From contig JASJYH010000001.1 in the NCBI GenBank assembly GCA_030123675.1, positions 1 to 64,000 of the forward strand: 64,000 nucleotides of DNA, in the 5' to 3' direction. Origin of the DNA: Anaerolineae bacterium (GTDB lineage Bacteria; Chloroflexota; Anaerolineae; Anaerolineales; Villigracilaceae). Below, in pieces: positions 20,352 to 49,255 of this stretch. How positions within the stretch are numbered: the first letter of the stretch is position 1; every line of letters begins with the position of its first letter. The notes under the pieces were generated by a model that had not been told where the DNA came from, ran no database searches, and saw only the letters and a program-made list of their open reading frames with translations. The position numbers and the translations under genes were made by a program.

Positions 20352-21049
20352 ATAAATCCTATCGCGTACCTATCCGTGTCCGTTTGACGCGACCAGCTGT
20401 GTTAGCCGCATTACGCTTGAGCTTTCGCATTCTTGGCCGTGTTAAAGTAAGAGGAAAAGAAAATATCCCATTGGGCAAGCCATACGTTTTGGCAATGAAC
20501 CATATTTCCATATTTGATCCGCCGCTAATCGCAAGTTTTTGGCCAGAATATTTGGAAATTATTGCTGCAGCAGAAATTTTTGACAAACCTGGTCAAGGCC
20601 AAATTTTGAAACTTTATGGGGCCATACCAATCCAGCGTGGTGGATATAATCGCACCTTAATGATGATGCTGGTTTCTATGATTAAAGGTGGATACCCTTT
20701 ACTAATTTCGCCAGAAGGTGAACGCTCCCACGTCACGGCTATGCAACGGGCATTGCCAGGGGTAGCTTACATCATCGAAAAAACCGGTGTGCCGGTTGTG
20801 CCGGCTGGCTTGGTCGGTACCACAGACGATTTTTGGCAACGTGGCAAACGCGGTCAAAAGCCACTGGTTGAAATTCGTATTGGCAAACCATTTCATCCGC
20901 CGCAAATCATCGAGAAAGGTGCTGCCAGGCGAGAAGCCCGTCAGCGTAATGCCGACTTGATCATGCGGCGCTTGGCAGGTTTGCTACCAGAAGAATATTG
21001 GGGTTATTATGCCGACTCAGTCATCTTCCCCTCCCAAACCTCTGAGTGA
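20342..21049 (+). CDS. 1-acyl-sn-glycerol-3-phosphate acyltransferase family (PlsC-like)
   Basis: MNHISIFDPPL (HxxxxD-like) and SPEGERS motifs. Confidence 0.85.
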   Translation: MYMNKSYRVPIRVRLTRPAVLAALRLSFRILGRVKVRGKENIPLGKPYVLAMNHISIFDPPLIASFWPEYLEIIAAAEIFDKPGQGQILKLYGAIPIQRGGYNRTLMMMLVSMIKGGYPLLISPEGERSHVTAMQRALPGVAYIIEKTGVPVVPAGLVGTTDDFWQRGKRGQKPLVEIRIGKPFHPPQIIEKGAARREARQRNADLIMRRLAGLLPEEYWGYYADSVIFPSQTSE

Positions 21050-21737
21050 GGTATGGAGACCAGAGTTAACGCGTTTGCCGCGGTTGCACCGCGCACGGCG
21101 TTGGTTCCGAATTTTTGGTCGGGGGTTGTGCAAATTTATCATCACGATTTTTACTAGACGAACGATAGAAGGGTTGGAAAATTTTCCAAAACAGGGCCCT
21201 GCCTTAGTGGTCATCAATCATCTGGGCGATGTAGATTCTCCATTGTTGGTTGCGTCTATACCAGCTTCGCTGGATGCTTTGGGAAAAATTGAACTTTATT
21301 ATCTCCCTGTTTTGGGAAAAATGATGGACTGGTATGGAGTCATCTGGCTACATCGTGGCCGAGCAGATCGGCGTGCAATGCGGGCTGCATTGGATGGACT
21401 CGCCCAGGGACGTATAATCGTGATTGCCCCGGAAGGGCGCTATAGTTTGATGGGTAGATTAGAAGAAGGCGGTCAGGGTGCAGCATTTTTGGCATTGAAG
21501 GCACAAGTACCGATTGTCCCAGTTGTCATGATCGGTACAGAGAACGAAGTTGTTTATGGTCATATAAAGCAGTTTAAGCGAGCCCCCGTCAGATTGAGGG
21601 TAGGAAAGGCCTTTCGACTCAGCCAGCAGTCAAATCGTCGAGTAAGGATGCGTGAGGGAACACGCCAAATCATGGAATCGCTGGCAAGATTATTGCCCGA
21701 GTCTTATCGAGGCGATTATCGTACCCTCAGCGATTAG
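21009..21737 (+). CDS. 1-acyl-sn-glycerol-3-phosphate acyltransferase family (PlsC-like), second copy
   Basis: VINHLGDVDSPLL and APEGRYSLMG motifs; overlaps preceding gene by 41 nt. Confidence 0.82.
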   Translation: MPTQSSSPPKPLSEVWRPELTRLPRLHRARRWFRIFGRGLCKFIITIFTRRTIEGLENFPKQGPALVVINHLGDVDSPLLVASIPASLDALGKIELYYLPVLGKMMDWYGVIWLHRGRADRRAMRAALDGLAQGRIIVIAPEGRYSLMGRLEEGGQGAAFLALKAQVPIVPVVMIGTENEVVYGHIKQFKRAPVRLRVGKAFRLSQQSNRRVRMREGTRQIMESLARLLPESYRGDYRTLSD

Positions 21738-44884: not shown

Positions 44885-45007
44885 CTTTTAGTACCCGGAC
44901 AACATGATAATGATGGCTGAAATTGCCCTACGCAACCACTTCACCAATCAAAATCAACTTGGACGGGCACTAGTGAATAACATGCTGGTAGTTAAGAAGG
45001 AGAAGAA

Positions 45008-45934: not shown

Positions 45935-47488
45935 TTACCGATGCCAGCGCCTTTGTTTTAACCCCATATAAGCTTCGAAATCCGAACATAGGTGCACTTG
46001 GTAGTTTATTTCTCCTTGCGAACACTTACATGAAATGGAGGCGCCTGGTAATCCTTGGGCAGATACTCTACCGGAATGGTTGAGTGACTGCCATCCCGGG
46101 CGGCATTGGTAATGCGGGGACAGAATTTCAATACCTGCCTCATTAAATTTGTCTTGAATATTTTGATGTAAATCTGAGTAAATCTTGGCCATATCGCTTG
46201 GCAGATTGGTATAAGCATTCAATTCATAGCTGACGTAGTAATCGTCCAAGCTGGTTTGATAGACAAAGGGCTTTGGCTTTTCTTGAATGTTTGATGTAAC
46301 TAGCGCAGCCTTAATCAGAGTTTCATGCACCAGCCGCCAGGGCACAACATAGCCCAGCGTAATAGTGGTATTAAGGATCAAGCCACGTTCCTGAGCCACG
46401 GAACTGTAATTGATGATGTGGCTACCTAGCACCATGCCATTTGGAACAGTGATGTCTACGTTTTTAATTGTGCGGATGCGCGTTACGAGTAATGTTTTTT
46501 CGATCACATCCCCAACCGTATCCGCGATTTTCACGCGATCGCCAACTTTGAATGCGCGAGTATACGTCATCACAACCCCTGCAATGACATTGGCTACAAT
46601 TGAAGATGAACCAAATGAGAATAAAAACCCAACAAAAATGGATACGCCTTGAAATACAGGCGATGACGATCCGGGCAAAAATGGAAATGCGACCACCAGA
46701 GCCAGGGCGATAACTAGGAACCGCACAAGTTGGTAGGTAGGTTCGGACCAATCTGGATCAAAATTGGCAAACGTAATAGTACCCTTGCCAATTTCGCGGA
46801 AGATGAAGTGAAGAAACTTCAACAAATAATTGGTGGCAAGGATGATGATGATTAAATTGAACAAACTTGGTAAGTAACCGACAAAATTTTGCCACCATCC
46901 TGCAATCACACCCAAAATGCCTTCCAGGATAGATGTGACGATACCGCGCGTTTGCGGAAAGATGCTAAACACCCCGGATAAGTAAATTAAGATGACCAAT
47001 ATATTAACCAAGAAACGGCCATACTTGTTAATGCTCAACACGAAATTGGTCAGTTGATCGGCGCTGAGAAGCTGCAATTTTTGAATCGAGATTTTCTTAA
47101 TGCTGGTTCCCCGTTGTGCTTTAATGTTTTTTTCAAATCGCTCAAAGCCGATTCTGATCCAGCTTATTACACGGAAGAGTAAGAATGTTGCAAGCACGAC
47201 CACTGCAAGGTTAAACACGAATACAACGATTGGAAGATTGAAGAATTTGGCAATCCATTCTCCGGCACTTTGTGTAAATCCTTGGATTTCTTCGATCGGA
47301 CTAACAAATTGCCATGCGGCCCACAATCCAATCAAAAAGAAGAGTAGCCGATTTATGCTGGCAAACCAGGCATTTAAACGAATGGAATCTGATTGCCCAA
47401 ACCAACCGGCTAATTTTTCATTCAGGGTGGTCCGATCAAGTAACCTATATATTAGCCGTGTATTTATGCGACCAAGTACCCAACCCAA
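45935..47488 (-). CDS. MscS-family mechanosensitive channel-like protein; the likely full gene starts at ATG 47569 but is interrupted by TAG at 47522-47524
   Basis: GSSSIVANVIAGVVMTYTRAFKVGDRVKIADTVGDVIEKTLLVTRIRTIKNVDITVPNGMVLGSHIINYS MscS core. Confidence 0.85.
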   Translation of the reverse strand: MGWVLGRINTRLIYRLLDRTTLNEKLAGWFGQSDSIRLNAWFASINRLLFFLIGLWAAWQFVSPIEEIQGFTQSAGEWIAKFFNLPIVVFVFNLAVVVLATFLLFRVISWIRIGFERFEKNIKAQRGTSIKKISIQKLQLLSADQLTNFVLSINKYGRFLVNILVILIYLSGVFSIFPQTRGIVTSILEGILGVIAGWWQNFVGYLPSLFNLIIIILATNYLLKFLHFIFREIGKGTITFANFDPDWSEPTYQLVRFLVIALALVVAFPFLPGSSSPVFQGVSIFVGFLFSFGSSSIVANVIAGVVMTYTRAFKVGDRVKIADTVGDVIEKTLLVTRIRTIKNVDITVPNGMVLGSHIINYSSVAQERGLILNTTITLGYVVPWRLVHETLIKAALVTSNIQEKPKPFVYQTSLDDYYVSYELNAYTNLPSDMAKIYSDLHQNIQDKFNEAGIEILSPHYQCRPGWQSLNHSGRVSAQGLPGASISCKCSQGEINYQVHLCSDFEAYMGLKQRRWHR

Positions 47489-47611
47489 TATTAAAGCTAG
47501 GAAGGCTAAGCCTAACCGAACCTAGATAGCTGCATCCAGGGTTGTTTGGAAAAATATATCTATTGACATTTTGTTCCTTTCATATCAGGCGATGTTCCTA
47601 AGCAAGATTGA

Positions 47612-48286
47612 TTATTTTTTCTCTGGAATATATTCGAATCTGAAGCCATCGATTTGAATATACGGTTGCCATTGTTTATAGCTGATTGCACGCACACGGC
47701 GGAGAATCTCATCCTTGCTCATATCTGGTTCGATAACAAACAATTTGTTAAATTGTGCGCGGGTAAATGGCGCACGGGTCCAGGTTTCTTCCGAGATGGG
47801 CAGTTCAGTCCCTTTTACCATTAACCCCAAGATTTCGAAGAACAGTGCGGTTTGATGCTCATAAGTGCGCTCCAACAATTCGGCCACACCATCTTCTGGA
47901 TAAATAGGAAAACGCCTTACAGCGATGATAACTCCCGTGTCCACTTTAGGCTCCATGTGGTGGCAGGTCACACCGTATTCCTTAGCTCGTTCATAAAGGG
48001 CAAAATTGTTACATCCAATTCCTGGGTATTCAGGTGAAGCTGGGTGAAAATTTATGGAAGCTTTTTGAGCACGGTTTAGTAGATATTCCGGTACCACCCA
48101 GCGCGAGAGATATGAGACGATGTAATCTCCATCCCAGTTTTGGGCAGCATCGGGCAATGGCTCACCCCATTCACCCAAACAATGAATCACTTTACTAAAG
48201 TGTTCCTGGCAGAAAGCTAGGGCACGAGCACAATGCGAGTCATTGGCTTTTCCTAGAAACAGGATAGGAATATCAGATTTGGGCAT
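47612..48286 (-). CDS. Formyltransferase-domain protein (methionyl-tRNA/sugar formyltransferase family)
   Basis: SINFHPASPEYPGIGCNNFALYERAKEYGVTCHHMEPKVDTGVII; start set to second Met because TATAAT overlaps the first ATG. Confidence 0.75.
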   Translation of the reverse strand: MPKSDIPILFLGKANDSHCARALAFCQEHFSKVIHCLGEWGEPLPDAAQNWDGDYIVSYLSRWVVPEYLLNRAQKASINFHPASPEYPGIGCNNFALYERAKEYGVTCHHMEPKVDTGVIIAVRRFPIYPEDGVAELLERTYEHQTALFFEILGLMVKGTELPISEETWTRAPFTRAQFNKLFVIEPDMSKDEILRRVRAISYKQWQPYIQIDGFRFEYIPEKK

Positions 48287-48299
48287 AATTTCCATTATA
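48286..48299 (-). promoter_or_regulatory. -10 box TATAAT 7 nt before ATG (leaderless candidate)
   Basis: minus strand: TATAATggaaattATGCCC. Confidence 0.5.
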
Positions 48300-48376
48300 A
48301 ACCGGTAGCAGGGATGAGTGTGGGTTGATACGGAAAGGGGGGATCAAGCGATCATAGGATTGCTTTTGCAAATACA

Positions 48377-48408
48377 TAAAACAACCTGTGCAAACACAGG
48401 TTGTTTTT
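48377..48408 (-). terminator. Rho-independent terminator downstream of the signalling operon
   Basis: AACAACCTGTG-caaa-CACAGGTTGTT perfect 11-bp stem flanked by A and T runs on both sides. Confidence 0.8.
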
Positions 48409-48511
48409 CTTCTAAAGATTCTAATGGATCAGCAATATCAGACCGCGTTTCCATGGATCGCCCTACGTCACCAGTTAAAATTTCTCCAGGAGCTAGTCTG
48501 CTACTATCGGG

Positions 48512-49255
48512 TTAATTTGAATCGGGGGGATTATTTTCTATTTTATCTCGTCTGAAATCTACAAACCTATAACCAACTCCGCGCTCGGTTAGCATGTATT
48601 TGGGGTCAGACGGATTGGCTTCTAATTTTTGGCGTAAATAATTGATATAAAGCCGAACATAATGAGGCTCATCTCGATATTCATAGCCCCAAACTTTTGT
48701 CAACAATTGATCGTGTGTAACAACCCAACCGGCATTTTGCACCAGATGGTAGAGCATACGATATTCTGTTGGGCGCAGTTTGACCAGCTTGCCTTCCAGC
48801 CAGATTTCGCGACGGTCAAAGTCTATTTTCAGGCGTTCATCTACCTCGATCAATCCGTGCATCGATCCACTGGCGCCTTCTGTGCGACGCAACACAGCCT
48901 TCACACGGCTGACTAACTCGCGTGGGCTGAAGGGCTTGGTGACATAGTCATCGGCGCCCAGTTCCAAACCGCGCACGCGATCATCTTCCTCTCCTTTGGC
49001 CGTCAGCATGATGACCGGTACCGTGCTCACCTCACGAATGGTTTCCAAAACTTCAAAACCATCGATATCGGGCATCATAATATCCAATAGGATCAGGTCT
49101 GGTGTCACATTGTGCATTTTATTAAGGGCTTCTTTCCCATTAAAAGCCTCGCTTACTTGAAACCCATCATGTTCCAGGTTCATTCGTATAAAGCGCACCA
49201 TGCGCTCTTCGTCATCCACTACAAGTATTCGGCGGCGTTCAAAATTTTCAGCCAT
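48512..49255 (-). CDS. OmpR-family response regulator
   Basis: [45 protein letters not shown]; winged-helix [14 protein letters not shown]. Confidence 0.93.

Follow-up and report, generated by a model that had tools for sequence, protein, structure and literature searches.

A probable young pseudogene of an MscS-type channel carrying an amber codon and a frame break in an Anaerolineae genome

There are two disabling lesions, relative to intact homologs, in the assembled copy of an MscS-type channel gene on the minus strand of the window, which is the whole 64,000-nucleotide stretch of Anaerolineae DNA that was analysed. Each of these lesions is flanked by homology on both sides. The TAG at codon 16 and a one-base break at ~46105 leave no complete ORF running from the start codon to the tail typical of the family. 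This locus is quite probably a young pseudogene of a dispensable channel, in which ribosomes would start at 47569 and halt at the TAG after 15 codons, ahead of the first membrane helix. Independently, the one-base break would swap the last 32 residues for 56 unrelated ones. We infer that the lesions belong to the organism and are not confined to its assembly, and that the locus yields no functional channel. The initial annotation had described the amber codon as lying in an otherwise intact gene and had listed a recent nonsense mutation first among its explanations. The TAG does interrupt a genuine N-terminus that bears the first transmembrane helix (TM1), but the description as otherwise intact fails at the break near 46105, which puts the last 56 residues out of frame. 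This second lesion near the 3' end shifts the balance from one odd codon towards a decaying gene.

Judged by its predicted domains, the locus is an MscS-superfamily channel gene. The MS_channel beta-domain (PF00924; 46403..46600, minus strand) scores 66.2 bits against a cut-off of 20.2, and the MscS C-terminal domain (PF21082) scores 55.4 bits against a cut-off of 21. Comparison with the PDB reveals likeness to MscM, MscK and MscS across residues ~219-485 only, and the NCBIfam matches, to the same three families, are all sub-threshold and far below the equivalog cut-offs. In its pore helix, beta-domain and C-terminal domain, the protein can be aligned with MscS-superfamily channels that have extra N-terminal transmembrane helices (MscM/MscK-like). 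It differs from them in three ways: the likeness to named families is limited to its C-terminal half, its N-terminus and tail are those of a separate subfamily that is unnamed in the PDB and NCBIfam libraries compared, and the copy in the window is broken at both ends. Three further MscS-domain genes are located elsewhere in the genome.

The architecture of the start region is confirmed at base level. A Shine-Dalgarno-like AAAGGA (47575..47580, minus strand) is located within the sequence GATATGAAAGGAACAAA ahead of an ATG at 47567..47569, with a spacing of 5 nucleotides. From this probable original start, the minus-strand frame reads MSIDIFFQTTLDAAI-TAG-VRLGLAFLALILGWVLGRINTRL, wherein codons 1-15 (47525..47569) are cut off from the remainder by the in-frame TAG (47522..47524). 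The frame then continues through a hydrophobic segment, VRLGLAFLALILGWVLG (47471..47521), into the channel; this segment was called as TM1 by inspection of hydrophobicity. The TTG used as the start by the ORF track (47486..47488) is codon 28, lies 12 codons downstream of the TAG and falls inside TM1. Among the three minus-strand frames, the annotated frame alone has a positive coding score from 47521 to 46150. The TM1 segment that follows the TAG is, on this reading of the sequence, a real part of the channel gene. The 15 codons before the TAG are probably genuine coding sequence as well, with weaker support drawn from the Shine-Dalgarno-like element, the start spacing, an FFQ in this segment that matches the closest relative (L085) and the codon model, in which the segment scores 0.6 versus -7.2 and -3.7.

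Alignment with close homologs places their starts 15-17 residues upstream of TM1 and puts sense codons opposite the TAG. The relative L085, from the same family as the source genome, shares 55% identity and begins MRDFFQSLFVPGDIQNILFAILTLILAVVGGRLL, and L005, from an Anaerolineales MAG, shares 51% identity and begins MDLPAILNDLLSSPWIILGLAALLLFVAWILGGLL. Both carry TM1 in frame, and their spacing from start to TM1 equals that in the window to within one or two residues. A sense codon occupies the position aligned with the TAG in these two genes and also in L009. These relatives bear out the earlier proposals that the residues after the TAG form the first transmembrane helix and that the predicted 517-aa form initiated at the TTG lacks its true N-terminus, and so this form is truncated. 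In the wider family the N-terminus is variable, with very different N-termini in some relatives, and this region has no significant score against an HMM built from mixed homologs. The argument for an upstream segment thus rests on the closest relatives, the Shine-Dalgarno-like element and the spacing.

One possibility is that the gene has been functionally shortened. Translation that starts or restarts at the TTG at 47488 would give a 517-aa product in which TM1 is cut short and the tail replaced, but the pore helix and the beta- and C-terminal domains are kept. The ORF from this TTG is open and holds both PF00924 and PF21082, the constraint on the core is undiminished, and the divergent N-termini of some relatives would suit such a product. 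However, the TTG is preceded by TAGCCTTCCTAGCTTTAATA and has no Shine-Dalgarno sequence, there is no in-frame ATG across the 185 codons past the TAG, TM1 would be cut inside a helix that relatives keep, and the tail is out of frame. We consider a shortened gene of this kind rather improbable. Reinitiation at this TTG, which had been raised previously, could occur at a low level, but without a Shine-Dalgarno sequence, with TM1 deleted and with the wrong-frame tail still attached. It is very unlikely that reinitiation past the amber codon combined with a tolerated replacement of the tail would give a working channel with altered ends. If it did, this would be a natural lineage with an MscS-type channel altered at its ends.

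The young pseudogene reading treats the TAG as an ordinary stop, and this is what it is in this genome. RF1 is present, and the stops of the 74 ORFs of coding composition on the 121.7-kb contig are divided among TAG (18), TAA (39) and TGA (17). There is no tRNA with a CUA anticodon among the 36 typed tRNA genes, and PylS is likewise missing from the genome, which is 94% complete. An alternative would be programmed recoding, wherein the full protein arises from a +1 frameshift combined with readthrough of the TAG, either through a suppressor tRNA or as pyrrolysine. A stem-loop can form directly 3' of the TAG (z -2.84), as such a mechanism might use. However, other, stop-free parts of this gene fold more strongly (to z -4.2), the homologs have neither the TAG nor a frameshift site and are read through this region in one frame, and a single gene would need two recoding events. 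With no CUA tRNA or PylS, and with RF1 present and TAG common as a terminator, programmed recoding is extremely improbable. The same observations leave the readthrough and the suppressor tRNA entertained by the initial annotation unsupported. The only feature that the locus has in common with readthrough and pyrrolysine genes is an in-frame TAG in a coding frame; it differs from them in that its genome has no CUA tRNA or PylS and uses TAG as a normal terminator. Three candidate explanations of the TAG were rejected: a suppressor tRNA or pyrrolysine, by the missing CUA tRNA and PylS; genome-wide reassignment, by the presence of RF1 and the use of TAG as the stop of 18 of the contig's 74 coding ORFs; and structure-driven readthrough, by a stem-loop that is not special within its own gene.

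Separately, a selenocysteine tRNA gene (anticodon TCA) is located beside tRNA-Pro(GGG) elsewhere in the genome (L123 2038-2133; G000 contig C66). In this lineage, the recoded stop is therefore probably UGA and not UAG.

The second lesion is a one-base frame break (46104..46106, minus strand; ~46105) between Q488 and a conserved A-x-RDG motif, although the exact base can be placed only to within a few nucleotides. Codons 1-488 of the channel reading frame (46106..47569) precede it. Homology in frame 0 ends at GIEILSPHYQ (46106), while the predicted ORF extends to 45935. Homologs with a full tail run on in the same frame after SPHY-x with A-x-RDGN-x-T-x-P-x-x-YLP-x-x-Y-x-x-P-x-F. In the window, the corresponding peptide, AARDGSHSTIPVEYLPKDYQAPPFHVSVRKEK, is found one frame over (46006..46104, minus strand), where it starts at 46104, ends with a TAA (46008-46006) and matches an HMM of the homologs built without the window's own sequence (E 6.5e-10). 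The frame-0 tail after 46105 has no match to the family HMM and is negative in the coding model. A homology-free seven-state coding model agrees, in that its frame-0 signal stops at 46121, which is 183 nucleotides short of the stop codon. In the predicted 517-aa ORF, the final 56 residues and the stop (45935..46105, minus strand) are therefore outside the family frame and are not conserved.

The main rival to the pseudogene reading is that the organism's channel gene is intact. On this view, the substitution and the indel arose in a metagenome-type assembly, either as errors in the consensus or as artefacts of mixed strains. In its favour, the assembly is a draft in 204 contigs, and the core of the gene is conserved as it would be in an intact copy. 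However, the frame break is not within a homopolymer, and two independent random errors would share this one 1.56-kb gene only ~1-2% of the time, as estimated from its share of the length of the contig's coding DNA. A scan for frame breaks across 321.7 kb of the same assembly (six contigs, including ten further 20-kb stretches, with 279 kb coding) also suggests that there are few others. Only 4 of 221 coding segments were flagged because their coding signal ends far from the stop, and the channel gene is among them. Another flagged segment, 21047-21558, proved on inspection to be an intact acyltransferase-like ORF, and so a flag by itself lacks specificity. When single-base insertions were spiked in, the scan noticed 26 of 30 that were placed mid-gene and only 7 of 30 that were placed ~110 nucleotides from the 3' end. 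Given this low sensitivity near 3' ends, the scan counts against frequent mid-gene indels more than terminal ones. Assembly error is less likely than a biological origin, and we regard it as unlikely overall. The remaining two flags of the frame scan mark genes at C127:3703-4382 and C149:1677-2491 (L144 and L147), in which the coding signal ends 159-188 nucleotides before the stop.

The distribution of the gene is sporadic. Only 5 of the family's 152 genomes yielded a relative, with a best identity of 55%, and homologs are scattered among Bacteroidetes, Nitrospira, Acidobacteria and others. The gene is intact in L085, L005, L009 and other genomes. A search for a closer relative in an equivalent gene neighbourhood found none; the sole other genome of the genus (G001, 65% complete) has no channel gene beside either flanking gene. 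In that genome, the AP-endonuclease-type and formyltransferase-type flanking genes are on separate contigs and have other neighbours. On the pseudogene reading, the gene belongs to a channel subfamily that is sporadic in its distribution, probably acquired horizontally, and dispensable. This patchiness and the three further MscS-domain genes in the genome would explain how it could be lost.

Two features of the neighbourhood are recorded here in their own right. There is a synteny break between window positions 47612-48537 and L134 (G001 contig C137). In G001, a NarL-type response regulator is located between the formyltransferase-like gene and an OmpR-type regulator, and a ribose-phosphate pyrophosphokinase-like gene is found downstream where the window has the channel, with gene names taken from translations. 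In addition, an intergenic element of ~85-90 bp at 44889-44979 has more than 30 dispersed copies in the genome at 76-98% identity, and one weak copy in G001. Its single-stranded DNA folds to an imperfect hairpin better than shuffled sequences do (z -2.65), and it has no match in Rfam. It has the appearance of a repeat of the REP or MITE type.

Conserved sites in the core of the channel are violated at 4 of 83 positions (rank 24 of 85) and at 2 of 53 positions (rank 14 of 85). The constraint is comparable with that of intact homologs, and violations are not clearly raised, as is expected if the loss is very young. At 4/83, the core shows no clear signal of relaxed selection. The undecayed state of the amino-acid sequence, which fits a recent loss, is also a point against the pseudogene reading in that an assembly error or some residual function would look alike. 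If the gene is indeed a pseudogene, the core codons would not yet have had time to decay visibly, and the inactivation would therefore be young. As a rough estimate, in which one mutation in about seven is assumed to be disabling, the loss would date to the order of one percent neutral divergence.

The gene is most likely an ordinary pseudogene of an accessory channel, of a kind known from other bacteria. Most pseudogenes in Salmonella are young, with little or no accelerated divergence, and their usual lesions are premature stops and small indels (Kuo and Ochman, PMC2916853). In a survey of 64 prokaryotes, a large share of pseudogenes was put down to failed horizontal transfer (Liu et al., PMC522871). 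The locus shares with these young bacterial pseudogenes a premature stop plus a small indel, little or no acceleration, and a sporadic, possibly horizontally acquired, lineage-specific gene. It differs in carrying two lesions where one is usual. Counting against the pseudogene reading, two lesions beside an undecayed core are a little unusual, since most Salmonella pseudogenes have a single lesion and only 32 of 378 had more than one (PMC2916853). The locus also differs from the published sets in coming from a draft genome of an uncultured lineage.

The locus provides no evidence for reassignment of a stop codon. For annotation, the 517-aa ORF should not enter as an intact MscS protein, because it lacks part of the N-terminus and ends in 56 out-of-frame residues. 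The locus would instead be one further example of the loss of a patchily distributed accessory channel gene.
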